A DNA stretch of 64,000 nucleotides, from positions 169,296-233,295 of the forward strand of contig DUMU01000035.1 of NCBI GenBank assembly GCA_012839805.1, written 5' to 3'. Within the stretch, counting starts at the first letter, position 1. Every line of letters starts with the position of its first letter. The stretch comes from Bacillota bacterium. Its GTDB lineage: Bacteria; Bacillota; Limnochordia; Limnochordales; DUMU01. Position numbers and translations under genes: made by a program. Positions 6,892 to 25,766 of the stretch are shown here, in pieces. Below the pieces are notes generated by a model. The model had not been told where the DNA came from and ran no database searches. It was given only the letters and a program-made list of their open reading frames with translations.

Positions 6892-7471
6892 CACTCCCCG
6901 GCAACTTCCCGAGAGCTCTCACGACAATCTACTCACCACGGCAGTGCCCCGGAGTTTGGCAGAGGGTGGAAGAATAATCCGCTTTGCATCAACGCGGGGC
7001 CGACCTCGTTCGCTGTTGGCGGTTTTTGGCATCTAGCGTGCAAATCCGTGGGGAGTTCCGGCTGTATCACGCTTGCTTGGCGGGCCCGGCGGATGGTTCA
7101 GCCGTGCCGGGGTGCGACCCGCGGCTGGCCGGCGAGGTCGTGGGCTAGCGCCACCCCGTTCGCCCGGGCTTCTTCGACGGAAGCGAACGACAGCCCCGGC
7201 GGAGACCGGCCCGACTAGGGGCATGGCCGGCTCTTTGGGCAGGAGATCGACGCGGCCGTTGACCCAGGCCGGTGAACTGCCTCCGAGCTTTCTACGCCTG
7301 GCATCTCCGGCGGGCTAAGGGCGGCAACTCCCGCGACGAGGCCACCGGTGAGGCCTGGCGTGAGTCCGCCGAGCAGAGCCGTAGTCAGACCGGCGATCAG
7401 CAGACCGGCGACCAGTGTGACTTTTGCCGCCTACCCGCACCAAGCAACGTGCGTGACGGTATTGGTCAGGA
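6892..7471. other. Gene-poor gap (580 bp) with possible decayed coding
   Basis: No convincing complete gene. On the minus strand, 7098-7196 has 33 codons of coding-like quality (LSFASVEEARANG ... ending at a TGA), which could be the tail of a lost gene. Another minus-strand stretch near 7310-7430 encodes a Gly/Leu-rich hydrophobic run without a start. A short direct repeat (CAGACCGGCGA) occurs twice at about 7388-7415. The gap lies where sugar ABC permease genes would be expected for the neighbouring binding protein. Confidence 0.45.
7098..7196 (-). pseudogene. Possible 3' remnant of an unidentified gene
   Basis: Minus-strand codons from about 7196 to a TGA at 7098-7100 read as a soluble, charged helix (SVEEARANGVALAHDL) with codon choices like the neighbouring genes. 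It is bounded upstream by a stop codon and has no start. I do not recognise the family, and chance is possible at this length. Confidence 0.2.
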
Positions 7472-8788
7472 TCATCGCGACTTCGTCCCTCTCTTCTTCA
7501 AGATCGTCGAGACGGCGGCATGCATCTTTTCCTGGGCGGCCGCGGGCGCAATCTCTCCCCGTAGCACCTGGAGCATCAACGGGTTGACTGCCTGCTCAAT
7601 CTCGTAAGTGAACGGGGTGACGATATCCGGGACGTTATGCGGGTAAAGCGAGATGGGAGCGAAGACTGCTCCGTTTTTCACTCCCTGGGGGAGCAGCTCG
7701 GCATACTTCGGCAAAAGCTCCACGCGGGCGGGGGGACGGCCGGTGAGTTCCACGAAGCGGAGCACGTTGGCGGGATCGAGGGTGATGAACTTCAACCATT
7801 CCCAGGTGGCAGCTTCGTTACGCGACCCGTAAGCTATCTGAAAGCCGTTGGCGAACAATGCCGTCCCGTTATTTGCCGGGCCCATGGGCATGGGGGCGAC
7901 GGCCAGCGACAGTCGCACCCGGTTGCCTTTCAAGATCCTCGGGTCGCGGAAGATGGTGGGACCATCGGATAGGCTGAGCGCCAGGGTTTCCTGTGCCAGG
8001 TCCAGCACCTCAAAGGGTGACACCCGGTAGGTGAAATAAAGATCACGCATCCATTCCAGGGTCTTCAGCACCGGAGGCGTGTTAAACCGGCTTTCGGTGG
8101 GGTCCACCGGCCGGTCATAAAACGACCCGCCCGCTTGGTGAACAAAGATGAACCACCGGTTGAGGCTCCAATACGCTTTGATCCCCCAGCGCTCGGGGGT
8201 GCCATCATCATTGCGGTCAATGGTGAGTTTCCGCCCGTATTCGATGACTTTGGACCAATCCCACTTCTCTTTAAGCACAAACGGTTCGATGAGGCCCGCC
8301 TCTTCCACATAGGCAGAGTTGTATATGGTAAGGATGGGATAGGTGGAGATAGGTAGGCTCCAAAGCTGGCCCTTCCACTTGAAGTCTTCCACTACCTGGG
8401 GGATGAACTGCCCGAGATCCACTCCATCCCTGGCCACCAGATCGTCGAGCATGCGGATAAGCCCGCGTTCGAGATAAGGAGCGGCCGAATCCGGATACGC
8501 TTCGAGGACGTCCGGCCCGATGCCGGCGGCCACGGTGCTGGTTACCTTGGTGAGGTACTCATGTCCGGGTACGTCGACGACGCGAATGTCCACGTCGGGA
8601 TGAGCTTTTTCATAGGCCTTTTCCATCTCGGCCAGGTAGCTTCGCCACGGGCTTCCATGCCAGGTGTTGTGGTAGTGGGTGATGATGGTCTTGGCCCCGT
8701 GGGCGACAGGCGCCGGCCCGGCCAGCGAGATGCTAACCGTGGTAGCCAGAAAGGCAAGCGGCACTAACCTGCGGAGTTCCTTGCACAT
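7472..8788 (-). CDS. Extracellular solute-binding protein, sugar ABC transporter type
   Basis: A 438-residue family 1 solute-binding protein. The N-terminus has Arg residues, a hydrophobic stretch (LVPLAFLATTVSISLAG) and an AHG-A-like cleavage region near residue 32; there is no lipobox Cys, so a free secreted or otherwise anchored form is predicted. Typical features follow: YLAEMEKAYEKAHPDVDIRV, PDVLEAYPDSAAPYL, and the calcium-loop-like DRNDDGTPERWGI. These proteins bind mono- or oligosaccharides and deliver them to an ABC importer. Start ATG 8788 is chosen for its AGGAGGTG SD 8 nt upstream; the frame continues to 8911. No permease or ATPase gene is adjacent, so the partner must be elsewhere or lost. 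Confidence 0.85.
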   Translation of the reverse strand: MCKELRRLVPLAFLATTVSISLAGPAPVAHGAKTIITHYHNTWHGSPWRSYLAEMEKAYEKAHPDVDIRVVDVPGHEYLTKVTSTVAAGIGPDVLEAYPDSAAPYLERGLIRMLDDLVARDGVDLGQFIPQVVEDFKWKGQLWSLPISTYPILTIYNSAYVEEAGLIEPFVLKEKWDWSKVIEYGRKLTIDRNDDGTPERWGIKAYWSLNRWFIFVHQAGGSFYDRPVDPTESRFNTPPVLKTLEWMRDLYFTYRVSPFEVLDLAQETLALSLSDGPTIFRDPRILKGNRVRLSLAVAPMPMGPANNGTALFANGFQIAYGSRNEAATWEWLKFITLDPANVLRFVELTGRPPARVELLPKYAELLPQGVKNGAVFAPISLYPHNVPDIVTPFTYEIEQAVNPLMLQVLRGEIAPAAAQEKMHAAVSTILKKRGTKSR

Positions 8789-8991
8789 GGTCTGAGCACC
8801 TCCTGGTACACGTACTGGAATCAGCCGGGGCTCACTAACAGTCATACTTTGCCAAGTGGTCGGGAAAGTCAAGGGGTGGCCCAGAGGATAGCCACGAGCG
8901 GCGCCCACCAATGATTTAGGTTATGATGGAGTTGGTCAGGGCCGTGGCCATAGTGTAGGGTGTGAAACGCGCCGGCGAGAGGTGACATTCA

Positions 8992-9438
8992 TTGAAAGGC
9001 AAAACGACCGGTCCCTGCTCTGAACCGTCTGTGATGCTGGCAAGCATGCAGCCGGTTACTCGAGATGAGCAAGCCAGGGCATGGGCGCCGTTTATAGAAG
9101 GTTGGAAGCAAAGGGCAGCCCGAGCCCGGGCCGAGTCCGAACGCCGCCTCGAGCAGGCGAGGGCGGATGCCCGCCGGCTGGCCGGCGTGCTTGCCCGAGA
9201 ATATGGGGTAAGCAAGGTATATCTTTTCGGTTCACTGGTCACGGGGCAGATGCACTCCCGATCGGACATCGACCTGGCCGTCGAGGGGCTGCCGCCGGCC
9301 CTGTACTATCAGGCCTGGGCGCGCTTGGAACGGGAGACCGACCTTCCCGTCGACCTGGTCGACCTGTCCCGTGCCGGGCCGTCGTTGGTGGAGCGAGTGG
9401 CAAGGGAGGGAGTTCTACTCTATGAACGTCACGGATGA
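8992..9438 (+). CDS. mntA: MntA-type nucleotidyltransferase antitoxin
   Basis: A 148-residue protein with a minimal nucleotidyltransferase domain. The defining GS-x10-DxD motif is exact: GS at residues 80-81 and DID at 92-94, with a further acidic VDLVDL segment near residue 118. MntA antitoxins transfer AMP to a Tyr of the partner HepT RNase and so silence it. Unusual here is a ~70-residue N-terminal extension, mostly a charged Arg/Ala/Glu helix (residues 38-70) that may form a coiled coil. The TTG start at 8992 follows GAGAGGTG; internal ATGs at codons 15 and 19 are alternatives. It overlaps the toxin gene by 17 nt. Confidence 0.82.
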   Translation: MKGKTTGPCSEPSVMLASMQPVTRDEQARAWAPFIEGWKQRAARARAESERRLEQARADARRLAGVLAREYGVSKVYLFGSLVTGQMHSRSDIDLAVEGLPPALYYQAWARLERETDLPVDLVDLSRAGPSLVERVAREGVLLYERHG

Positions 9439-14618: not shown

Positions 14619-17600
14619 TCAGCTTGCGGTGCCCGTGCCAGTCGCCTGGCAGTGTGAACGCAGGTACAGGTCGAAGAGAAAGTCCTTGACCGCTTCACCG
14701 AATGCCTGATCGTCGATGATACGCCTGTAGAGCTCGAAGTTGGAGTCTACGATTTCTTGAATTGCTTGTTCGAGCTTCTGATCAAACGTCAGGCGGACAT
14801 TCTCGCGGGTGTTGACCCGAGCGCTGGCGTCAAGAGCAGGGTCGGCATCGAGTCTTGCCATTATCTGGCCGAGCGTAACGCGGTGCTCTGGTCCGAGATT
14901 GAGCCCGAAGCGTTCGTTCAGTTCCGCAATGATGCGCGAGAGCGGCTCGAGTTCTTCCGGCGCTAGTCCATACCGCCCCTTACTGCTTTGCGGATCGAGC
15001 AGGCCGGCTTTCCGATCCAGCGCGATCATCCCGCTACTTGTTTGTTGGATGCGGTAGGATTCCATGTCGATGTTTTGCTGAATTTCCCAGGGCAGCGTGT
15101 CGCGGTCGGCAGGGAGCAGCCGTCGCAGGTGACGTGCAAAGACGTACAGCTTTTCCAGCTCGACGTCCGCGAAGGTTAGAACCTGTGCGAGGAAGGCATA
15201 GAGGCGGAGGAAATCCGTGAGCTCGCCGCGGAAATCTTTCTGTTCATCTGCGGGCAACGCACGGAAACGTTCCAAGACGGGCGTAAGAGCCGCATACAGT
15301 TGGTCTTGGGTGGTTTTCTTGTCGAAGTACATTTTGGCAAAAGCGTCGACGTCCGCCTCGGTATACACCGAGAAGCTGCTCAAGCGAGCCTGAATCTCGT
15401 AGAGTAGGTTTGGATCCGTCTCCTCGGACAGCAGGGTCGTTTCATAATACGGCTCGAAGGACTCCTTGATCTCGTCGGCCTCGTTGGCAAAATCGAGCAC
15501 CATTGTGCCCCTCTTTTCAGGATGGGTGCGGTTCAGACGCGAAAGCGTCTGAACCGCGTTCACTCCGCCCAGCTTTTTGTCGACGTACATTGTGTGCAGG
15601 AGGGGCTGGTCAAAGCCGGTCTGGAACTTGTTGGCCACGATCAGGAAGCGGTACTCCGGGCGCTCGAAAGCCTTCGCGGTTTGGGCTTCCGGGAAGCCGT
15701 TCATGCCGGCTTCGGTGTAAGACTGGCCGCCGTCCTGAACTGTTCCCGAGAAGGCAACCAGCGCCTTGAATGGATATCCGCGCTCGGCGAGATATTTGTC
15801 TATGGCGAGCTTGTAGCGCACGGCGTGGAGACGCGACCGGGTGACGATCATCGCTTTCGCCTTACCGCCGATCTCGTCTTGCACTTGGGTGGCGAAGTGT
15901 TCGACCATGATGCGCACTTTCTCGTTGATCGCATGCGGGTGGAGCTCCACGAAAGACTTTAGGAGGTACTCGGCCTTTTTCTTATCATACCGGGGGTCGT
16001 CCTCGATCTTCTTGAGCAACCGCCAATAGGCCTTGTACGTGGTGTAGTTGGCGAGCACGTCCAGAATGAACCCTTCTTCGATGGCCTGACGCATGCTGTA
16101 CAGGTGGAACGGCTCGAACTTTCCGTCCGCGCGGCGGGTGCCGAAAAGCTCGAGCGTTTTGGGCTTGGGCGTGGCGGTGAAGGCGAACATGGAGAGGTTC
16201 GGTAGCCGCCCGCGCTTTTCGATCTCGGCGAGAATAATGCTTTCTAGCTCTTCCTCGGGCGTTGCCTCCCCGGCCTCTTCGCGCTCCGCCTCCTCGAGCG
16301 AACCCGAGGCCAGCACGGCCTTGAGGCTCTTGGTGCTCTCGCCCGATTGGGAGGAGTGGGCCTCGTCCACGATCACGGCGAAGTGCTTGCCAGGAAGCTC
16401 ACCGATCTGGTTCACGATCACGGGGAACTTCTGCAGCGTGGTGACGATGATCGTCTTCCCAGACTCCAGCGCCTCCTTGAGCTGGCGTGACGTGGTATCG
16501 ATGTTCTCCACCACCCCCAGCGTTTGTTCGAACTGGCGCATGGTGCGCTGCAGCTGTCGGTCGAGCACCCGCCGGTCGGTGACGACCACGATGGAGTCGA
16601 AAACCCGCCGGTCAGTAGCATCGTGCAAGGTTGCCAGCTGATGGGCCAGCCAGGCGATGGTGAAACTCTTGCCGCTCCCCGCCGAGTGCTGGATGAGGTA
16701 GCGTTGCCCCGGGCCATGCCGTCGGGCATGGGCGATGAGCTTACGGACACAGTCGAGTTGGTGGTAGCGCGGAAAGATCAGAAACCGCCGGCCGGTCTTG
16801 CGGCCCTTCTCGTCTTCCTCCTCCGCCTCGTGGATGAACTGGCGGATGAGGTCGAGCACGCTGTCTCGCGCCCAGGTCTCCTCCCACAAGTAGCTCGTAG
16901 CGTAGCCATGGCGTGTGGGCGGCACCGGCGGATTCCCCGCGCCGCCAAAGCGACCCTTGTTGAAAGGCAGGAACCGCGTTTTGACGCCCTGCAGGTGCGT
17001 GGTCACATAGACGAGATCGGGGTCCACGGCGAAGTGCGCCAAGCAGCGCCCGTAGGCGAAGAGCGGCTCGCGGGGGTCGCGGTCGGTCTTGTACTGCCGC
17101 ATCGCGTCCTCCACCGTCTGGCCGGTGAGCGGGTTCTTGAGTTCGGCGGTGAAGATCGGGATGCCGTTCAGAAACAGCACCAGATCGATGCTCTTCTCGT
17201 TCTTCATACTGTAGCGGAGCTGGCGCACCACGGAAAAGAGGTTTGCCTGATAGAGGCGCTGCGTCTCCTCGTTGAGCCCGCTGGCCGGGCGGAAGTAGGC
17301 GAGCTTGAACTTGCAGCCCGAATCCTTAATGCCGTTGCGCAGCACATCCAGCGCTCCGCGGCGCTCGATCTCGGAGGAAAGCCGCTTGAGGAACTGCTCC
17401 TTCACTGCCCCGCCGTGGTGCTGCTTGAGTTTAGCCCATTCCTTGGGCTGGGTGGCGAGGACGAAGTCCACCACGTCGCGCGGGATCAGGCAGAGCACAC
17501 GGTCGTATTCGTCGGGGCGGCGCTTGTGGTAGCCGCCCGGAGGCATCTCGCCGTAAGGTACCGGCGTCTCGTGCACCCCGCTGGTGTCGCCATCGCCGGC

Positions 17601-17678
17601 GTAGGAGTCAGGACCGTATTGGAGCAACGCCGCCTCGATGGCGTCCTCAAAACTGCGCTCAGAGATGTCCGGGCTCAC
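14619..17678 (-). CDS. hsdR: Type I restriction enzyme R subunit (HsdR)
   Basis: A 1019-residue translocase/endonuclease. The N-terminal nuclease core has the PD-(D/E)xK-like element ending FTAELKNPLTG near residue 190. The SF2 motor follows: HSAGSGKSFTIAWLA (Walker A, about residue 332), VIVDEAHSSQSGE (motif II) and AFTATPKPKTL (motif III), then the helicase C lobe with SRLNRTHPEKRGT. The C-terminal helical part should bind the methylase. With HsdM and HsdS it cuts unmodified DNA after ATP-driven translocation. It starts inside the stop of fic (4-nt overlap), so the two are translationally coupled. Full length for the family, no lesions seen. Confidence 0.95.
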   Translation of the reverse strand: MSPDISERSFEDAIEAALLQYGPDSYAGDGDTSGVHETPVPYGEMPPGGYHKRRPDEYDRVLCLIPRDVVDFVLATQPKEWAKLKQHHGGAVKEQFLKRLSSEIERRGALDVLRNGIKDSGCKFKLAYFRPASGLNEETQRLYQANLFSVVRQLRYSMKNEKSIDLVLFLNGIPIFTAELKNPLTGQTVEDAMRQYKTDRDPREPLFAYGRCLAHFAVDPDLVYVTTHLQGVKTRFLPFNKGRFGGAGNPPVPPTRHGYATSYLWEETWARDSVLDLIRQFIHEAEEEDEKGRKTGRRFLIFPRYHQLDCVRKLIAHARRHGPGQRYLIQHSAGSGKSFTIAWLAHQLATLHDATDRRVFDSIVVVTDRRVLDRQLQRTMRQFEQTLGVVENIDTTSRQLKEALESGKTIIVTTLQKFPVIVNQIGELPGKHFAVIVDEAHSSQSGESTKSLKAVLASGSLEEAEREEAGEATPEEELESIILAEIEKRGRLPNLSMFAFTATPKPKTLELFGTRRADGKFEPFHLYSMRQAIEEGFILDVLANYTTYKAYWRLLKKIEDDPRYDKKKAEYLLKSFVELHPHAINEKVRIMVEHFATQVQDEIGGKAKAMIVTRSRLHAVRYKLAIDKYLAERGYPFKALVAFSGTVQDGGQSYTEAGMNGFPEAQTAKAFERPEYRFLIVANKFQTGFDQPLLHTMYVDKKLGGVNAVQTLSRLNRTHPEKRGTMVLDFANEADEIKESFEPYYETTLLSEETDPNLLYEIQARLSSFSVYTEADVDAFAKMYFDKKTTQDQLYAALTPVLERFRALPADEQKDFRGELTDFLRLYAFLAQVLTFADVELEKLYVFARHLRRLLPADRDTLPWEIQQNIDMESYRIQQTSSGMIALDRKAGLLDPQSSKGRYGLAPEELEPLSRIIAELNERFGLNLGPEHRVTLGQIMARLDADPALDASARVNTRENVRLTFDQKLEQAIQEIVDSNFELYRRIIDDQAFGEAVKDFLFDLYLRSHCQATGTGTAS

Positions 17679-18838
17679 AGCGGCTCCGTCCCCTCGTTCA
17701 ACACGCGAAGGTATCGATCGTACGCAAAAACCCTGTTTCGCCTTTTTCCGGTCAGCTCGCGGGCCACGCCGAGCTTTAGCAGTACATTCATGCCCGTCGC
17801 CGCGGCCGGGAAGGAGAGCCCGGTGCGCCGGCAGATCTCCTTGAGCGAGATCACGGGTCGCTCCTGCAGCGCGGCGTGCACGCGCAACGCCGAACCGGCC
17901 GCGCGGCCGCTACCCTGAATGCGCACAGCGTCGGCGTTGAACAGTTCCACCAGGCGCTGCGCCGTCGCGACGGCACCTGCGGCGGTGGTTTGTACACCCT
18001 CCAGGAAGAAGTCGAGCCACGCCTCCCAGTCGCCCTCCGCGCGCACCTGGTCCAGCAATCGGTAGTACTCGGCGCGGTTTCGCTTGAAGAAAAGACTCAG
18101 GTACAAAAGTGGTTGGGTGAGTATGCCGGCATCGCACAGAATCAGCGTGATGAGCAGCCGGCCCATCCGCCCGTTGCCGTCAAGGAAAGGATGGATCGTC
18201 TCGAACTGGACATGCGCCAGGGCGGCCTTCACCAGGACCGGTAGCGCTATATCGTCCTCATGCAGAAACCGCTCGAGATGGCCCATGCACTCGGCCACGG
18301 CGTGTGGCGGCGGTGGCACGAAGTGGGCTTTCCCCGGCCGGGTGCCGCCGATCCAGTTCTGCGAGCGGCGGAACTCGCCGGGCAGCTTGTCGCTTCCCCG
18401 GCCGCGGGAGAGGAGCTTGGCATGGACCTCACGGATCAACCGGTTCGAAAGGGGAAAGCCTCCCTTCAGCCGTTCCAGCCCATGCTCCAGCGCCCCCACA
18501 TAGTTGGACACCTCTACTACATCGTCCATCGGCGCGCCCGGCGCCTCCTCGAGCTCGAACAGCAGGAGATCGGAGAGGGAGGACTGGGTGCCCTCGATCT
18601 GCGACGAAAGCACGGCTTCCTTACGTACATAGGCGTAAAGGAAGAGATGCGGGTCGGGCAACAGGGTGGCAATGCTGTCCAGGCGTCCCAAGGCCAGCAA
18701 GGCTCGTTCAAGCAGGATCTGGCGTGCGCCGTCCAGAACGAGCGGCGGCTCGGGGGGCAACGGATCCGGCACGAAGGCCCGCACCGTTTCGCCCCCGGCG
18801 CGGAAGATCTCGAAACGTCCTGTCAGGCCTCTCTTCAC
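17675..18838 (-). CDS. fic: Fic-family AMP-transferase with C-terminal winged helix
   Basis: A 387-residue Fic protein. The catalytic motif HPFLDGNGRMGR is at residues 216-227 and matches the active consensus. An inhibitory helix of the (S/T)xxxE(G/N) type is at residues 78-83 (SSQIEG), before the Fic core, which makes it a class II, self-inhibited Fic. Residues ~320-380 form a winged helix (SLKEICRRTGLSF ... GVARELTGKRRNRVFAYDRYL). Fic enzymes transfer AMP to Ser, Thr or Tyr of target proteins. This type (Fic_N/DUF-linked) is often found inside type I R-M loci, but its role there is not known. GTG start at 18838. An inverted-repeat operator lies just upstream. Confidence 0.9.
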   Translation of the reverse strand: MKRGLTGRFEIFRAGGETVRAFVPDPLPPEPPLVLDGARQILLERALLALGRLDSIATLLPDPHLFLYAYVRKEAVLSSQIEGTQSSLSDLLLFELEEAPGAPMDDVVEVSNYVGALEHGLERLKGGFPLSNRLIREVHAKLLSRGRGSDKLPGEFRRSQNWIGGTRPGKAHFVPPPPHAVAECMGHLERFLHEDDIALPVLVKAALAHVQFETIHPFLDGNGRMGRLLITLILCDAGILTQPLLYLSLFFKRNRAEYYRLLDQVRAEGDWEAWLDFFLEGVQTTAAGAVATAQRLVELFNADAVRIQGSGRAAGSALRVHAALQERPVISLKEICRRTGLSFPAAATGMNVLLKLGVARELTGKRRNRVFAYDRYLRVLNEGTEPL

Positions 18839-18864
18839 GGCGCATCCCCTGATTCAGCTTTGCT

Positions 18865-18912
18865 CAATAAGAGAATAGCTTATTTAGTGATACAGGCGCA
18901 ACACTTAATAAG
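18865..18912 (-). promoter_or_regulatory. AT-rich operator/promoter of fic-hsdR
   Basis: Within a GC-rich region this 48-bp AT-rich stretch holds three copies of one half-site. CTTATTTAGTG (18879-18889) and, inverted, CACTTAATAAG (18902-18912) match at 10 of 11 bases with a 12-nt gap; AATAAG (18866-18871) forms a second inverted pair with CTTATT (18879-18884). A weak minus-strand promoter (TTGCGC, 18 nt, TATTCT) overlaps it. The winged helix at the Fic C-terminus makes autoregulation a natural guess. Confidence 0.5.
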
Positions 18913-18932
18913 CCCGTGACCTGGCTCGGTTG

Positions 18933-20261
18933 TCATGACGCGGCCTCGTCCCGCACGTCGATCTTACCCGTCACCGCGGCGGAGATGAGCGCTGTGCGGT
19001 ACTCCTTGAGCCGCTCGACGCCCTCGCGAATCTTGGCGATCAGCGCGTCGATCTTCGCCGTCTCCCGGTCGAGGAACGCGGCGATAGTACGTTGTTCGTG
19101 GTCTGGCGGTATTGCGACCGGTAACTCCCGAACCTGCCCCTCATTTACCGATGGTACGGCTCCCGGATTCGCTAGCTCGCCGAGGTCAAGACCGCTCAAC
19201 CAGTAGAAAGCCCAGTTATGGTCACAAGATCCCGGTATGAATCCCATCATATTGTTGTCTATACAGGACGGCGTTGTAAGTATCCGACGCCTATTGAGCT
19301 TAAGCGCCGCACCAACCTTTGGGAACACGATAGCTCCAGCCGGAAAAATGAATGCGCGTAGGCGTCGCGCGGTCTGTCGCGAAACCGAGTTAGGCGCGGT
19401 TTCGATGTGCTTCTCGTCCGGAGACAGCACCATATCCCCGACCTTGAAGAAGGGCAGCTCTTCGTCCGGAATTCCCTGCTCTTCTTCTGGGAATCCAGCC
19501 CCAGCCTGAAGTGATCCCAGCCGCTTCAGTCGCGTCACCTCCCAGTGCGCAGGGATCTCCCCCAGCCACTCGACGCCGGAGTCCTTCATGGGGACCTCTG
19601 GGTCAAGCCCCTTAGTGACAGCTCGGGTGATGAGCGCGGTGCGCTTTTCCTGCAACAGCTCGATGAGGCGCTGCTTCTTCGCCACCAGCGCGTCGATCTT
19701 CGCCGTCTCCCGGTCGAGGAAGGCGACGATGGCGCGTTGTTCGTCCGTGGGGGGCAACGGTATGGCTGTTGCGGCGAGATGGTCAGGACTCACGCGCGGC
19801 ATCTTGGTGCCATAGGTCAGCGAGTCAATCCACCGGATGAACGTAGGATTTAGCAAACAATAGAAGAGATACTCTTGACTGCACTGCCCTGTCGGGTTCA
19901 TTACGACAAGCTCGCTAGTGCATACTCCGCTAAAATCGGGGCGCGCCACTTTGGCTAAATATGGACGCAACTTGCCAAAAAGCACATCGCCAGCCGTGAA
20001 GGAGACAACGACACTTTCGACGGTCTCGGGTTGAGCATCGAGCAGCAAACGTCCGGTCCAAGACTCAATGTGCTCGAGGCCCAGATAGGGGGCATCGCCT
20101 GTTTTCTCGGCCATTTTCCTGCGAATTGGTGCCGCATGCTTGAGCCGCTTTACCTCCCAGTGCGCCGGGATCTCCTCCAGCCACTCGACGCCGGAGTCCT
20201 TATAGGCCGGGTAGGGCTTGAAGCGGCGCAGGATTTGACGTTCCTCAGGGCCTTTGTTCAA
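18933..20261 (-). CDS. hsdS: Type I restriction specificity subunit (HsdS)
   Basis: A 442-residue HsdS with two target-recognition domains and two conserved helices. Each half starts with the same phrase (KDSGVEWLEEIPAHWEVKR and KDSGVEWLGEIPAHWEVTR) and ends in a shared helix (FLDRETAKIDAL ... RTALI). The two recognition domains between them differ, so a two-part asymmetric DNA target is expected. Start TTG at 20261 overlaps the abiEii stop (TTGA) and follows a GGGAGGGA SD; the open frame extends to 20378 but those residues lack family similarity. HsdS joins HsdM for methylation and HsdR for cutting. Confidence 0.92.
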   Translation of the reverse strand: MNKGPEERQILRRFKPYPAYKDSGVEWLEEIPAHWEVKRLKHAAPIRRKMAEKTGDAPYLGLEHIESWTGRLLLDAQPETVESVVVSFTAGDVLFGKLRPYLAKVARPDFSGVCTSELVVMNPTGQCSQEYLFYCLLNPTFIRWIDSLTYGTKMPRVSPDHLAATAIPLPPTDEQRAIVAFLDRETAKIDALVAKKQRLIELLQEKRTALITRAVTKGLDPEVPMKDSGVEWLGEIPAHWEVTRLKRLGSLQAGAGFPEEEQGIPDEELPFFKVGDMVLSPDEKHIETAPNSVSRQTARRLRAFIFPAGAIVFPKVGAALKLNRRRILTTPSCIDNNMMGFIPGSCDHNWAFYWLSGLDLGELANPGAVPSVNEGQVRELPVAIPPDHEQRTIAAFLDRETAKIDALIAKIREGVERLKEYRTALISAAVTGKIDVRDEAAS

Positions 20262-20659
20262 GGCGCAACTCCCTCCCGCCGGGGCGACGGCGCCCAGGGG
20301 GCGCCGGCCTGCCAGACGAAACGAAAATTCCCTGCTCGCGCGGCGGCACCGAAGACGGGTTCCACGTTTACGGAGCACACCTCCGCGAACATCGCGGCCA
20401 GGGTATCATCCGATAGATCGCCGAAGCCAAGGAGGTCCGCATCGCGCGTCGGGCGGATGGTCTCGCCCAGCCACATGAGAAGCAAGAGCGCCCCTTTGAG
20501 CACAAAGCGCTCGGCGTGTCGCGATCGGGACAGCCGGTAGACCAGGCGTTCGGTGGCGAAGCGGGTCAACACCAGATTCGGATCCACGCCCAAGGACGGC
20601 GCATGTCGGATCAGGCGCGTATGGATGGACTGCACCAGGCCACTGGTTGTTTCACTCAT
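20258..20659 (-). CDS. abiEii: AbiEii/AbiGii-type nucleotidyltransferase toxin, C-terminally truncated
   Basis: A 133-residue protein matching only the N-terminal third of AbiEii toxins, which are usually 220-300 residues. The GALLLLMWLGETIRPTRDADLL segment (shown here in parts: KGALLLLMW and RPTRDADLL) corresponds to motif I with the metal-binding D-x-D as DAD. The later catalytic motifs and the helical C-terminal domain are absent; the frame ends at the hsdS start. AbiEii toxins in type IV toxin-antitoxin systems pyrimidylate tRNA acceptor ends, so this short form is probably inactive. Its ATG at 20659 overlaps the AbiEi stop by 4 nt, and its stop overlaps the hsdS start. Confidence 0.75.
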   Translation of the reverse strand: MSETTSGLVQSIHTRLIRHAPSLGVDPNLVLTRFATERLVYRLSRSRHAERFVLKGALLLLMWLGETIRPTRDADLLGFGDLSDDTLAAMFAEVCSVNVEPVFGAAARAGNFRFVWQAGAPWAPSPRREGVAP

Positions 20660-21279
20660 GATACCAGCGCCTCCAGATAAGGGGTCATGACCCGTTGAAC
20701 GCGGCAAATGCGCGCATAGCGATCCAGCTCATCTATGGTGAAGCGGCGTTCGCGCCAGGCTTCACGCAGGGCTTCGAGCGCCACGTCAAGGCCGACCTTG
20801 TTCCGGTACTTGAAGAGGTCGGCCAGCGTTTTGGCGATGCCGTAGATTCTGACCGGTTGTCCTTCTACAAAATGCGTCTCTATCCCCGCCGTGAAGGCTT
20901 CGCCGCTGAAACGCACGACGTGTAGGGGAGGGTAGCGCAGGTTCGGCCAGCGGGCGCGGCGGTCGATGGCGACCCAAACCTCGGCGGGGAGCTGCGTGCC
21001 GATGCCGTGAAAAGTTAGCGCAGAGAGCAGGCAGATCACGCCAGATGGTATCGCGCGGGCCACGATGACGAGGCTGTGATGCTCGGTGAACGACTGGTTG
21101 GCCAGTCGGTATTGCCCGCGGGCGATGCGTTCCAGGGTACCCTCCCGCACGAGGCGGGTGAGAACCTGGCTGTGAATCCCCCTCTGGGCGGCCTCGCGCG
21201 CCGTAAGGAACCCGTGCTTGTGAACGAGTTGCAGTACCTCTTCGCGATGCGGGGATGCCATGTGTGATATTGTACTCAC
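20656..21279 (-). CDS. abiEi: AbiEi-family antitoxin/transcriptional regulator
   Basis: A 207-residue protein of the AbiEi type. The N-terminal winged helix (about residues 10-60, GFLTAREAAQRGIHSQVLTR then LVREGTLERIARGQYRL) is followed by the AbiEi C-terminal domain with LLSALTFHGIGTQLP, VWVAIDRRAR and YGIAKTLADLFKYRNKVG. In characterised AbiE systems this antitoxin represses its own promoter and counters AbiEii. Here it sits between hsdM (34 nt upstream) and the truncated toxin, so it may still regulate the R-M transcript although the toxin looks incomplete. Confidence 0.82.
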   Translation of the reverse strand: MSTISHMASPHREEVLQLVHKHGFLTAREAAQRGIHSQVLTRLVREGTLERIARGQYRLANQSFTEHHSLVIVARAIPSGVICLLSALTFHGIGTQLPAEVWVAIDRRARWPNLRYPPLHVVRFSGEAFTAGIETHFVEGQPVRIYGIAKTLADLFKYRNKVGLDVALEALREAWRERRFTIDELDRYARICRVQRVMTPYLEALVS

Positions 21280-21312
21280 TTGCGCTCAAATGTCAACGGT
21301 TCCACAACCGCA

Positions 21313-23463
21313 TCACGACGAGCTTTCCGTCAGTTCCGCCAGCATCCGCTCGATGTCTTGCACGATGGTGCGTATGTCGGCCTCGATCTCTTCCAGAGGC
21401 CGCGGTGGGGTGTAGCGGTAGAAGTAGCGGTTGAAGTTGATCTCGTAGCCCACAATGCCGACCTTGCCGTCCTTGGGGTCACGCTTACTGGTGTCGATCC
21501 ACGCGTCGGGCACATGGGGTTTGACCTCGCGCTCGAAGAACGCGCGCACGCTCGCCGGCACGCCCTGGGAATCCACGGGATCGTCGCCGTCAGGTAGGGG
21601 CACGTTCTCCGTGTCGCGCAGCTCAGGGTCGGGCTCAGGGTAGCCATCCTCATCGCGGCAGATCGCAGCGGTCCCATCGCGTTCGGAGAGTGCGGAAAGG
21701 ATGGCTTTCAACACGGGCGCGGGGAGCTTCAAGCCGGCCTGCTTCGCTTCGCTTTCCAGCATGCGCAAAAATCCCTCGCGGTCTTTATAAAGCGTCGGCG
21801 GAAGCCTTTGGAGAAACCGGCGGATGGCTTCCTGCTGCGCGCGACCCTCTGCAGTCTCCCTTTCCCCTGCGCTCCCCTTTTTCTTGGACTGGGCAAGGTT
21901 CTGGAACGCCCTTTCCTCTTCGAGCCGGGCGATGCGCTCGGGGCTTGCCTGGAAACTGAGCCGGAGCGCGCGCTCTACCGTGATTTTGCGGTAACCAAAG
22001 TAGGTGGCGGGGAAGATCCGGCTCACCACAACTTCCTCTTCTTTCCCGTCTTTCACGATGCGGCGAGTTTCGCCATCCCGGAAGTTGCGCAGAATGCGGA
22101 CGATGTCTTCTGCTTGCTCGGGCGAGATCTCGCGGCGCTTGTCGCCGAGGCTCTTGCGCATCGGCGTCCAGAACGATGAGGCATCAATGAGCTGCACCTT
22201 GCCACGGCGCTGGGGCGCTTTGCGGTTGGTGAGCACCCAGACGTAAGTGGCAATGCCGGTGTTGTAGAAAAGCTGCTCAGGGAGCGCAATCAGCGCCTCG
22301 AGCCAGTCGTTCTCCAGAATCCAGCGGCGGATCTCGCTCTCGCCGCTGCCGGCATCGCCGGTGAAGAGCGGCGAGCCGTTCATTATGATGGCGATCCGCG
22401 AGCCGCCTTCTTCGGGCTTCTTGGCGTGTGCCAGCATGTGCAGCAGGAAAAGGAGCTGCCCGTCACTGATGCGCGGCAGCCCCGGGCCAAAACGACCTGC
22501 CGCGCCCCGTTCGTGCTCGGCGCGCACGGCTTCCTCGTCACGATTCCAATCCTTGCCATAGGGTGGGTTGGCAATCAGGTAGTCAAAGGTGCGGCCCGCG
22601 TGGCGGTCGTTAGACAGCACGCTGCCGAAGGCGATGTTGTCTGCATCGCGACCGGTCGGGTCTTTTATAAACAGGTCGGATTTGCAGACGGCCCAGGTCT
22701 CGGGATTGACCTCCTGACCAAAAAGGTGGATTTCGGCATCGGGATTGATGGGCGGACGGATGATTTGGCCGTTTTTGCGCACGCCGATCGTGATGTGCTC
22801 CTTAGTGATCATCAGCATGCCGCCCGAGCCGCAACAGGGGTCGTAGACCGTGCAGACAATGCCCTTGCGGCGGATGCGTTCCTCATCACCGGCGAGCATC
22901 AGGTCCACCATGAGGTGCACCACGTCGCGAGGCGTGAAGTGCTCGCCCGGGTTTTCATTCAGCGCCTCATTGAAGCGACGGATCAGTTCCTCGAAGATCG
23001 TGCCCATCGTCGGGTTGTCTACCTTGTCCGGATGCAGGTCCACGTTCTTGAAGCGCTCGAGTACCTTGAAGAGGAGCCCCGCCTCGTCGAGTTTGCTGAT
23101 GGTGTTATCGAAGTCGAACCGCTCGAGCACCTCGCGCATGTTGGGGCTGAACCCCGCGATGTAGTTCCGGAGGTTGGCGGCGAGGTGCGGCGCATCGGCC
23201 AGGAGCTTCTCGAAATCGTAGCGCGAGGTGTTGTAGAAGGCGAAGCCGGAGGCCTGGCGCAATAGCGGATCGAGGTTCTCGAGCTTGCCCTTGAAGCGCG
23301 CCTGGGTCTCCAGCACCCTCTCCTTAGTCGGCGCCAACACGCAGTCCAGCCGCCGGAGTACCGTAAGTGGCAAAATCACGTCCTGATACTTGCCGCGTTT
23401 GAAGGTGTCGCGGATGAGGTCTGCAACACCCCAGATGAAGCTGACGATCTCGCTGTGGTTCAT
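21313..23463 (-). CDS. hsdM: Type I restriction-modification methyltransferase (HsdM)
   Basis: A 716-residue N6-adenine methyltransferase subunit. The N-terminal helical domain (MNHSEIVSFIWGVADLIRD) is that of HsdM. The SAM-binding motif DPCCGSGGML and the catalytic NPPYG motif place it in the gamma class. About 200 C-terminal residues carry a charged helix and a domain ending in VGYEINFNRYFYRY. With HsdS it methylates adenines in both strands of the target and protects host DNA. ATG 23463 is chosen because family similarity starts there and a GGGAG SD precedes it; the frame is open to 23538. First gene of the minus-strand island. Confidence 0.94.
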   Translation of the reverse strand: MNHSEIVSFIWGVADLIRDTFKRGKYQDVILPLTVLRRLDCVLAPTKERVLETQARFKGKLENLDPLLRQASGFAFYNTSRYDFEKLLADAPHLAANLRNYIAGFSPNMREVLERFDFDNTISKLDEAGLLFKVLERFKNVDLHPDKVDNPTMGTIFEELIRRFNEALNENPGEHFTPRDVVHLMVDLMLAGDEERIRRKGIVCTVYDPCCGSGGMLMITKEHITIGVRKNGQIIRPPINPDAEIHLFGQEVNPETWAVCKSDLFIKDPTGRDADNIAFGSVLSNDRHAGRTFDYLIANPPYGKDWNRDEEAVRAEHERGAAGRFGPGLPRISDGQLLFLLHMLAHAKKPEEGGSRIAIIMNGSPLFTGDAGSGESEIRRWILENDWLEALIALPEQLFYNTGIATYVWVLTNRKAPQRRGKVQLIDASSFWTPMRKSLGDKRREISPEQAEDIVRILRNFRDGETRRIVKDGKEEEVVVSRIFPATYFGYRKITVERALRLSFQASPERIARLEEERAFQNLAQSKKKGSAGERETAEGRAQQEAIRRFLQRLPPTLYKDREGFLRMLESEAKQAGLKLPAPVLKAILSALSERDGTAAICRDEDGYPEPDPELRDTENVPLPDGDDPVDSQGVPASVRAFFEREVKPHVPDAWIDTSKRDPKDGKVGIVGYEINFNRYFYRYTPPRPLEEIEADIRTIVQDIERMLAELTESSS

Positions 23464-23565: not shown

Positions 23566-25392
23566 TCAAGCCGGACCGACCCGTACCGACAGCGAACGCA
23601 GCCGGTTGATGGCTGCCCCCACCTCAAAAAGGCGCGGCAGGGCCAAGTCGCCTACCGGCGAACCATGAGGAGAAAGAATGTCCAGGCCGCGTTCTTTGAT
23701 CTCGGCCATCAGCTTCTCCAAAGCCTCCCGCAACGGGGTGCGCCCGTCCAGGTAATGCTCGGCGAGATACTGGATCATTGCTCCGATGGCCCGGGTCTGG
23801 CCGGGGTGGACGATCTGTTCCACGGCGGCCAGGTCGATCTCCTCGAAGCCGAACGCGATCTCATCGACGCCCCGGGCTTTGATCTTCACCCGGCTTCCTC
23901 GCCGCGGGTCGACACTTTCCGGAACCGGCCGGCGGGGCAAGAGGACCGGAAAGGGTTGCGGATCTTCCTGCAAACGTCCCGTGACAAAGCGGGCGGCCAC
24001 CTCCCGGGCGGCGGCGGTGGCGTCGAGGGGGCGGTAGTGGTCCATGTGGATCACCGTGTCGGCAACGTCCAGGTAATCGCCTGCTCCGCCTACTACGATC
24101 ACCGAGGAAACGCCCCGGTCTTCCCAGAGGGAGCGCACCCGGTCGATGAACGGGGTGATCGGTTCCCGGTCTTTGCTGATCAGGGCCTGCATGCGACGGT
24201 CGCGGATCATGAAATTGGTGGCACTGGTATCCTCGTCGATGAGGAGCACCCGGGCTCCCAGCTCCAGGGCTTCGACTATGTTCGCCGCCTGAGAAGTGCT
24301 TCCCGACGCCTCCTCGGTAGAAAAGCGCCGGGTGTCCGCACCAAAGGGGAGGTTCCGGATGAACGGGCTGATGTCTACCTGCTCAACGCGGCGGCCATCC
24401 TCGGCTCGTATCTTCACGGCCGTGGGGTCGGTGACTACCCGCTCGCGGCCGTCGCCGGGAACGTGGTTGTAGATTCCGAGGGCGAGGGAGCGCAGTAACG
24501 TGGATTTGCCGTGGTAGCCGCCACCCACGATCAAGGTTACGCCGGCGGGGATCCCGAGTCCCCTGACCGGGCCCCCGTGCGGGGTGTCGAGGGTGACGGC
24601 GAGGGAGTCGGGCGCGGTGAAGGGGACCACGTTCGGACCGCGCCGCGGCCGGTCGCTGATGCCGCTTTCCCGGGGAAGGATCGAGCCGTCGGCGACGAAA
24701 GCGATGAGGCGGTGGGCGGCCAGGGCGGCCCGCAGAGCCTCCTGATCTTCAACGGTAAAGATGTGGGTTTCGAGGTCGGAAAGATCCCGAGACCCCAGTA
24801 CCAGCGAGCGGTTCACCAGAGCAGGAATTTCCGAGGCGAGCATCGCGGCGGCCTGGCGGCCGAGAATCCGGCGCCCGGCCGCCGGAAGCCCGGCAACGAA
24901 GCGCAGTTCAACCCGGGCGGGAGTGACCACCGCCGCGGTGGAGGGCAGGATTTGCTGCCCGGGCCGGTCGATATCGATGAGACCGCTCTTGCCGCTTCCA
25001 TACCAGGGCCTCCCGTTTCCGGCCCCGCCTTCGCTAACCGGCCGGGGGCTGCTGCTCGCGGGCATCGAGACCGGCGGGCGACGGCGACGTTCATCCAGGG
25101 CACGGGCAAAACGCCGGACCAGCCAGTCGGCGGTGGCGATGCACCGCAGATCGGTGGAGCAGGCCCAGGGCGGTAGCCCCATGGAAGAGGGTGTGAGCAG
25201 GAGCCGCAGCCGGGAGGGGGCGGCGAACGGGTCTCCTTGTACGTGGTCGATGACCAGAACGAAACGGCCGAAATCGTAGGCTCCCTTGACGTCCTTGTAG
25301 GCGGGATATCCCCGCCCGTCGATTTCATGAAGCAGCTTTTCCAGATCTCGGGCCGGCCGTACCCCGGCCCGAGCTCCCGATTCTATGTTCAA
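23566..25392 (-). CDS. COG3044-type predicted ATPase of the ABC class
   Basis: A 608-residue protein matching the ABC_ATPase family (PF09818). The family-typical N-terminus LHEIDGRGYPAYKDVKGAYDF is present (given here in part: YPAYKDVKGAYDFGRF). A P-loop GGGYHGKSTLLRSLA follows in the middle, then LLIDEDTSATNFMIRD as the Walker B region, and IVVGGAGDYLDVADTVI. There are no membrane segments. The function of this family is not established; it is a soluble ABC-like ATPase. Start TTG at 25392 is preferred because GGAGGT lies 8 nt upstream; the frame is open to 25419. It is on the same strand as hsdM, 102 nt upstream of it, but probably not part of the R-M unit. Confidence 0.8.
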   Translation of the reverse strand: MNIESGARAGVRPARDLEKLLHEIDGRGYPAYKDVKGAYDFGRFVLVIDHVQGDPFAAPSRLRLLLTPSSMGLPPWACSTDLRCIATADWLVRRFARALDERRRRPPVSMPASSSPRPVSEGGAGNGRPWYGSGKSGLIDIDRPGQQILPSTAAVVTPARVELRFVAGLPAAGRRILGRQAAAMLASEIPALVNRSLVLGSRDLSDLETHIFTVEDQEALRAALAAHRLIAFVADGSILPRESGISDRPRRGPNVVPFTAPDSLAVTLDTPHGGPVRGLGIPAGVTLIVGGGYHGKSTLLRSLALGIYNHVPGDGRERVVTDPTAVKIRAEDGRRVEQVDISPFIRNLPFGADTRRFSTEEASGSTSQAANIVEALELGARVLLIDEDTSATNFMIRDRRMQALISKDREPITPFIDRVRSLWEDRGVSSVIVVGGAGDYLDVADTVIHMDHYRPLDATAAAREVAARFVTGRLQEDPQPFPVLLPRRPVPESVDPRRGSRVKIKARGVDEIAFGFEEIDLAAVEQIVHPGQTRAIGAMIQYLAEHYLDGRTPLREALEKLMAEIKERGLDILSPHGSPVGDLALPRLFEVGAAINRLRSLSVRVGPA

Positions 25393-25766
25393 TGCCCGGC
25401 ACCTCCGGCTTCCAACCATTCAGATTAACATAGCCATGTCTTCCCCAATAGTTTCAAGCTGCCGAGGCTCCCGGCCGTTCCCGGGGCGGTCCGGGTCGTT
25501 CCGGTACCGCCCGGCTCGCCGACGACGGCCGCCCGCGTTCAACATTTCAAACATTTCAACATCCGGTGGCGGCGATGGCCGGGCCGGGAGGACACCGGCA
25601 CCGGTTGTCGAAGCAATACTCGCTCGTAGCTCCCGCGGTCCGGCCTCGGTGGTCCGGTCGCCGTCGATTCCGGCCGGCATCGCCCGGGCCGGCCAGGCCT
25701 AGGGTCGCGGGCAGCGGGTAGATTACTGGGGGTAATCACGACCGGAATGGGAGGAGACAAAGCAGC
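25393..25766. other. Intergenic region (374 bp)
   Basis: Lies between divergent genes and should hold both promoters; none is clear. A short repeat of the motif ACATTTCAA occurs around 25540-25560 in an otherwise GC-rich, Arg-codon-like stretch. No coding sequence is convincing. Confidence 0.5.

Follow-up and report, generated by a model that had tools for sequence, protein, structure and literature searches.

What does a toxin–antitoxin (TA) pair do in the middle of a type I restriction–modification (R-M) operon, and what remains of that role once the toxin is broken? The question is raised by a block of six genes in a stretch of 64,000 nucleotides (nt), hereafter the window, from contig DUMU01000035.1 of the Bacillota genome GCA_012839805.1. 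On the minus strand, their transcript order is hsdM–abiEi–abiEii–hsdS–fic–hsdR, with abiEi and abiEii being the antitoxin and toxin genes of an AbiE-type (type IV) system. An earlier inspection of the letters alone (the sequence-only reading) had given this order and strand, which the frames, protein families and motifs bear out, and had suggested a layered abortive defence. Judged from its genes, the type I R-M operon is an ordinary one, and the AbiE cassette within it was inactivated recently. The abiE-bearing arrangement as such is conserved, and, in the literature searched (subscription journals lying largely outside it), we found no description of abiE between hsdM and hsdS. We lean, with modest confidence, towards a composite explanation, in which the hsdM–hsdS junction would be a recurrent TA slot of this R-M family, the AbiE cassette would occupy that slot with a promoter of its own, its toxin would be dead here, and the locus would thus hold complete R-M genes, a Fic enzyme held in check by its own inhibitory motif, and an AbiEi that has lost its partner and regulates the genes downstream.

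It is the toxin gene that has suffered. Aligned with 28 other AbiEii matches, full-length or partial, the abiEii of the window has lost about 180 codons, so that motifs I and II are kept and motifs III and IV are deleted. The 32-residue tail that follows in frame after residue 101 is the W..GGPW C-terminus that intact homologues have in common, and the abiEii stop codon and its TTGA overlap with hsdS are left in place. The gene had been called truncated; it is indeed shortened, but by an internal, in-frame deletion that spares the true C-terminus. According to PMC3985639, all four motifs are needed, as a point mutation in any one of them abolished toxicity in the AbiEii studied; with motifs III and IV gone, the window product is very likely non-toxic, and an AbiEii carrying motifs I–IV, as expected of an AbiE toxin, is not what this locus encodes. 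Compared with a relative in the genome G012, in which abiEii is itself interrupted by transposase-like sequence (identified as transposase by eye), the N-terminal part that remains has a ratio of non-synonymous to synonymous substitution rates (dN/dS) of 0.16 and hence no decay, which suggests that the deletion is recent.

The antitoxin gene, in contrast to its partner, is full length. AbiEi has the winged helix-turn-helix and the antitoxin domain, and its residues 13–194 are homologous to the solved AbiEi structure 6y8q, which we take to be that of the S. agalactiae protein. The structure of S. agalactiae AbiEi has been reported (PMC7319586), and published AbiEi proteins autorepress via inverted repeats, with AbiEii not enhancing repression (PMC7319586). 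The closest AbiEi relative is found in G012, a genome of the same order (83% identity over the aligned length, 86% over the tree columns). Across the compared pairs, dN/dS values of about 0.08–0.24 point to purifying selection, each such value blending the periods before and after toxin loss. When the rest of the genome was searched for a complete copy of AbiE, nothing matched P0004.

Directly before abiEi lies a predicted sigma-70 promoter, the sole match in the 9.4 kb scanned; at 11 or more consensus positions out of 12, none is expected per strand and two occur in the whole 64 kb. Its −10 element ends 7 nt upstream of the abiEi ATG, and the mRNA may be leaderless. We prefer this ATG (21261) over the alternative GTG (21279), because the latter falls inside the promoter spacer and because three relatives (L096, L011 and L023) share the same promoter spacing to an ATG. 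The gap between hsdM and abiEi, previously given as 34 nt, is therefore 33 nt if counted to the GTG and 51 nt if counted to the ATG, which is the likelier start, while the 94 nt between hsdS and fic and all three 4-nt overlaps (ATGA at abiEi/abiEii, TTGA at abiEii/hsdS, GTGA at fic/hsdR) are as the sequence-only reading had them. That reading had named independent promoters for each unit as evidence that would speak against it; what we find is one strong predicted promoter, that of abiEi, within the block and, in relatives, a conserved palindrome at the same junction, owing to which the six genes probably do not form one simple transcript. With motifs III and IV deleted and abiEi under its own predicted promoter, we reject a layered abortive defence expressed as one transcript, and an abortive function in this genome is unsupported.

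To place the arrangement in a wider context, genomes of the GTDB were scanned with an HsdM pattern, and the best 80 loci were annotated with profiles of the six window proteins; the scan favours relatives sharing certain peptides, and the frequencies below are valid for this sample, just as the trees are quick searches with SH-aLRT support only. Within one HsdM clade (SH-aLRT 97; 50 rows), which represents many phyla, abiEi directly or shortly follows hsdM in 38 of 42 informative loci and is absent from four. These 38 comprise 28 loci with abiEii, nine without it, and the window. Outside the clade (32 rows, 22 informative), abiEi occupies the hsdM–hsdS slot in none of the 22; among the uninformative rows there, abiEi follows hsdM at the end of a contig in L075 and lies upstream in L047. 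The sequence-only reading was thus right that a type IV TA pair separates hsdM from hsdS, and the co-occurrence, whose absence elsewhere would have counted against it, is kept across phyla. The search that it proposed, for the same order with an intact abiEii, succeeded twice: L008 shows the exact gene order of the window, and L155, from a separate search of Gemmatimonadota, shows it with 1.4 and 1.7 kb of additional intergenic DNA and with hsdS and hsdR split. Recurrence in unrelated genomes indicates that the six-gene order is beyond chance. Loss of the toxin is recurrent as well, with eight changes on the HsdM tree.

The AbiEi lineages of these loci differ in the DNA that precedes their genes. 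Before abiEi of the main lineage, a palindrome, TGTCGGCA-N12/13-TGCCGACA, is present in 23 of 31 loci with up to three mismatches. Before hsdM it is present in none of the 31, and the idea that the whole operon is jointly controlled from an operator there was rejected. With up to two mismatches, there are 27 matches in hsdM–abiEi gaps versus seven elsewhere in 1.37 Mb, and one mononucleotide shuffle yielded three. A second AbiEi lineage has a palindrome of its own, CGTCGGGG-N12-CCCCGACG, in all four of its loci, suggesting that the site follows the AbiEi lineage; since the main-lineage site is likewise found before the free-standing AbiE pairs of L142, L148 and L152, it belongs to the cassette. 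The palindrome was first noticed by eye in the loci used for most of these counts, and the sole independent set consists of 18 non-duplicate out-of-sample AbiEi loci, five of which carry the site, compared to 1.8% of random windows.

Several observations bear on how the cassette came to this position. AbiEi proteins of R-M loci fall into at least three lineages, interspersed with free-standing plasmid pairs, and a tree mixing both kinds requires at least two forced switches. Loci L006, L008, L010 and L023 have closely related HsdM proteins and AbiEi proteins of different lineages, and in three of them (L006, L010 and L023) main-lineage palindromes lie just after hsdM although their own AbiEi comes from another lineage, L023 preserving traces of two. 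The best reading of this combination is that one cassette after another has been replaced at the junction. A main-lineage palindrome just after hsdM was noted in L008 too, and a half-site in L002, without any AbiEi beside it, likewise looks like a trace of a replaced cassette. Sister loci devoid of AbiE fill the hsdM–hsdS gap with other TA or toxin genes: MNT-HEPN in L069 (Pfam-tested) and in L070 and L073 (by similarity), a FitA-like/PIN pair in L077, PIN in L060 and L042, and, inside the AbiE clade, DarT with a macrodomain protein in L005. The same stretch of other loci held two further features: a ThsB-like TIR protein between abiEii and hsdS (L033:13779–14288), and, in L022 (about 6950–9329, plus strand), abiEii and hsdS in a single frame of 793 residues, a possible natural toxin–specificity fusion or a lost stop codon.

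Taken together, these data are compatible with a mechanism in which AbiEi most likely continues to repress the promoter from which it is itself expressed. Since the start of hsdS lies in the stop codon of abiEii and fic and hsdR come next, transcripts from this promoter would also cover these three genes, provided that transcription runs through to hsdR, and would not include hsdM. AbiEi bound at the junction in this genome would then probably repress the transcription entering hsdS–fic–hsdR, from which the operon might draw a regulatory benefit, and we regard such regulation as the most likely single mechanism. A stronger version we put forward only tentatively: in a cross-phylum clade, the junction would be a replaceable slot in which AbiEi has been co-opted to govern the transcription of hsdS–(fic)–hsdR, by way of operators matched to its lineage, and persists in this role after toxin loss. 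Several points weigh against regulation by AbiEi. Eight of the 31 main-lineage loci have no palindrome at up to three mismatches, and in the AbiEi lineage of the window the same palindrome was looked for and no clear one was found, promoter spacing alone being conserved; its abiEi junction offers a near-consensus promoter, whereas relatives offer clear lineage-specific palindromes. Read-through from an hsdM promoter is possible. Free-standing AbiE pairs, too, often lose the toxin, as in six of 16 free-standing AbiEi loci sampled from one phylum (absent in L141, L143 and L153, broken in L145, L150 and L154). That AbiEi has been kept may therefore reflect no more than the usual decay of a TA pair, and we rejected it as proof of a role in R-M. 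Finally, the abiEii deletion appears too recent for selection on AbiEi afterwards to be measurable, and this test of its role was dropped.

Decay of this kind is at the heart of an alternative in which a selfish AbiE cassette repeatedly lands in a permissive R-M junction, stabilises the operon by addiction while its toxin is active and then degenerates, its operator serving AbiE alone and AbiEi having no role for R-M. We consider this joint claim rather unlikely, even though much of the evidence fits it: close homologues are free-standing plasmid pairs, R-M and free-standing copies are mixed in the AbiEi tree with its forced switches, free-standing AbiE is commonly toxin-less, other TA types occupy the same slot, and AbiE is able to stabilise plasmids (PMC3985639). 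Yet abiEi occurs in nearly all informative loci of one HsdM clade, more than one would expect of a passenger that can be dispensed with, and the palindrome persists in several loci that have lost the toxin (L031, L034 and L065).

For relatives with an intact toxin, one may also envisage that AbiEii is released when a phage inhibits the R-M complex, or when the host is shut off, and that death or stalling follows, much as for PrrC in EcoPrrI; in the window this arm would be dead. The PrrC precedent and the hypothesis of immunity–suicide coupling (PMC3506569 and PMC12707154) speak for such a guard, as do the DarTG2 embedded in a type I R-M system as part of an active anti-phage island (PMC12255303) and the fact that many related loci encode an AbiEii in which motifs I, III and IV can be recognised. 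It is nevertheless improbable, considering that AbiEi is a dedicated antitoxin, which makes the R-M complex unneeded as an inhibitor, that the toxin has been lost recurrently, and that no fusion or motif joins AbiE to Hsd, save the single abiEii–hsdS frame mentioned above. Least probable of all, to the point of being hardly credible, is that the shortened AbiEii functions as it stands, for instance as a translation-coupling leader for hsdS or as a dominant AbiEi-binding peptide. The in-frame deletion, the retained stop codon with its hsdS overlap, and the low dN/dS of the N-terminal part would suit such a function; however, chance alone keeps the frame in one third of deletions, other toxin-less loci hold different remnants or none, and the dN/dS is equally consistent with a recent deletion. 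We therefore retain regulation by AbiEi as the preferred reading.

Features of the six-gene block (positions within the 64,000-nt window; all six genes on the minus strand)
Feature	Position	Strand	Description
hsdM, type I R-M methyltransferase	21313..23463	-	Pfam N6_Mtase E 2e-55, HsdM_N 3.5e-24; motifs DPCCGSGG, NPPY
predicted sigma-70 promoter, directly before abiEi	21269..21296	-	TTGACA-16 nt-TACAAT; 11/12 consensus matches
abiEi, AbiEi-family antitoxin/repressor, full length	20656..21261 (alternative GTG start 21279)	-	AbiEi_4; PADLOC AbiEi 282 bits
abiEii, in-frame internal deletion	20258..20659	-	101 N-terminal residues + 32 C-terminal residues; Pfam AbiEii positions 1-73 of 238
approximate deletion junction inside abiEii	20350..20362	-	short microhomology inferred vs L011 and L096
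hsdS, TTG start, two target-recognition halves	18933..20261	-	Methylase_S twice; PADLOC Specificity_I 401 bits
fic, SoFic-like class II	17675..18838	-	Fic_N + Fic; active site HPFLDGNGRMGR; inhibitory motif SSQIEG
hsdR	14619..17678	-	HSDR_N nuclease domain (D..ELK), Walker A GSGKS, DEAH motor; SWI2/SNF2

The remaining genes of the block (Table) have uninterrupted frames with the expected domains and motifs: HsdM with N6-adenine methyltransferase motifs, a two-half HsdS, and HsdR with a PD-(D/E)xK nuclease and an SF2 motor, from which methylation and cutting in this genome are predicted. HsdM scores 92 bits against the NCBIfam hsdM equivalog, below its cut-off of 243, and thus represents a divergent subfamily; HsdR scores 228 bits against TIGR00348 (cut-off 285). 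The Fic protein matches the pattern of class II Fic AMP transferases (HPFx(D/E)GNGRxxR with an N-terminal [ST]xxxE[GN]) and reaches 146.6 bits against the SoFic equivalog NF046030, whose curated score is 550, making it SoFic-like and not an equivalog by cut-off. Full-length fic precedes hsdR also in L002 and L019, both without abiE; most AbiE-bearing R-M loci have no window-type fic, and no Fic–AbiE link other than position was found among the profile-read relatives. Where the window has fic, the hsdS–hsdR gaps of L020 (Pfam-tested) and L036 (by similarity) hold an XRE/IrrE-peptidase and DUF4411 pair. The AT-rich gap between hsdS and fic (18839–18932) contains an inverted repeat spotted by eye, CTAAATAAG...CTTATTGAG, a candidate fic operator not seen in the corresponding gaps of L002, L008 and L019. 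Before hsdM lies a gene for a 617-residue ABC-class ATPase (PF09818, MRB1590_C; 23566–25419). A same-genus genome, G001, has neither this hsdM nor the ATPase and possesses the transporter flanking the hsdR end, which fits horizontal acquisition; with the flanking transporter as the sole match, G001 gave no island boundary.

How does this locus compare with known systems? With the AbiE type IV TA systems, as described in PMC3985639 and PMC7319586, it shares the overlapping abiEi–abiEii pair, AbiEi homology over its length, a promoter directly upstream and, in relatives, inverted repeats; it differs in being embedded among hsd genes and in the deletion of motifs III and IV. The related prior art found in the literature searched consists of DarTG2 and PrrC. 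EcoPrrI–PrrC likewise has a toxin gene within a type I hsd operon, but PrrC has no cognate antitoxin gene, the Hsd complex keeping it in check instead (PMC3506569, PMC12707154), whereas AbiE comes with an antitoxin and a promoter of its own. The usual view of TA genes in R-M loci is that of such suicide arms, restrained by the R-M complex, and one survey states that immunity loci apparently do not encode typical antitoxins (PMC3506569). The HsdM clade described here is a counter-example, with a standard antitoxin within the hsd operon in many phyla and an operator sequence that tracks the antitoxin lineage.

The RptR-R-M-DarTG2-M48 island of E. coli E2348/69 (PMC12255303) resembles the locus in that a TA system is embedded in a type I R-M operon and one of the operon's promoters is the target of a small autorepressor, a candidate one in the window. 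There, however, DarTG2 lies between hsdS and hsdR, and a separate small RptR, encoded before hsdM, controls all genes (PMC12255303). The slot directly before hsdM is held in the window by the ABC-class ATPase (no RptR profile was run), and the candidate repressor is the antitoxin AbiEi itself, between hsdM and hsdS. Controller (C) proteins of type II R-M systems, whose fold is unrelated to that of AbiEi, are also autoregulators encoded within an R-M locus; the predicted AbiEi site differs in that it would act on hsdS as well as on hsdR. If AbiEi indeed controls both genes, a TA antitoxin would constitute the type I analogue of a controller protein.

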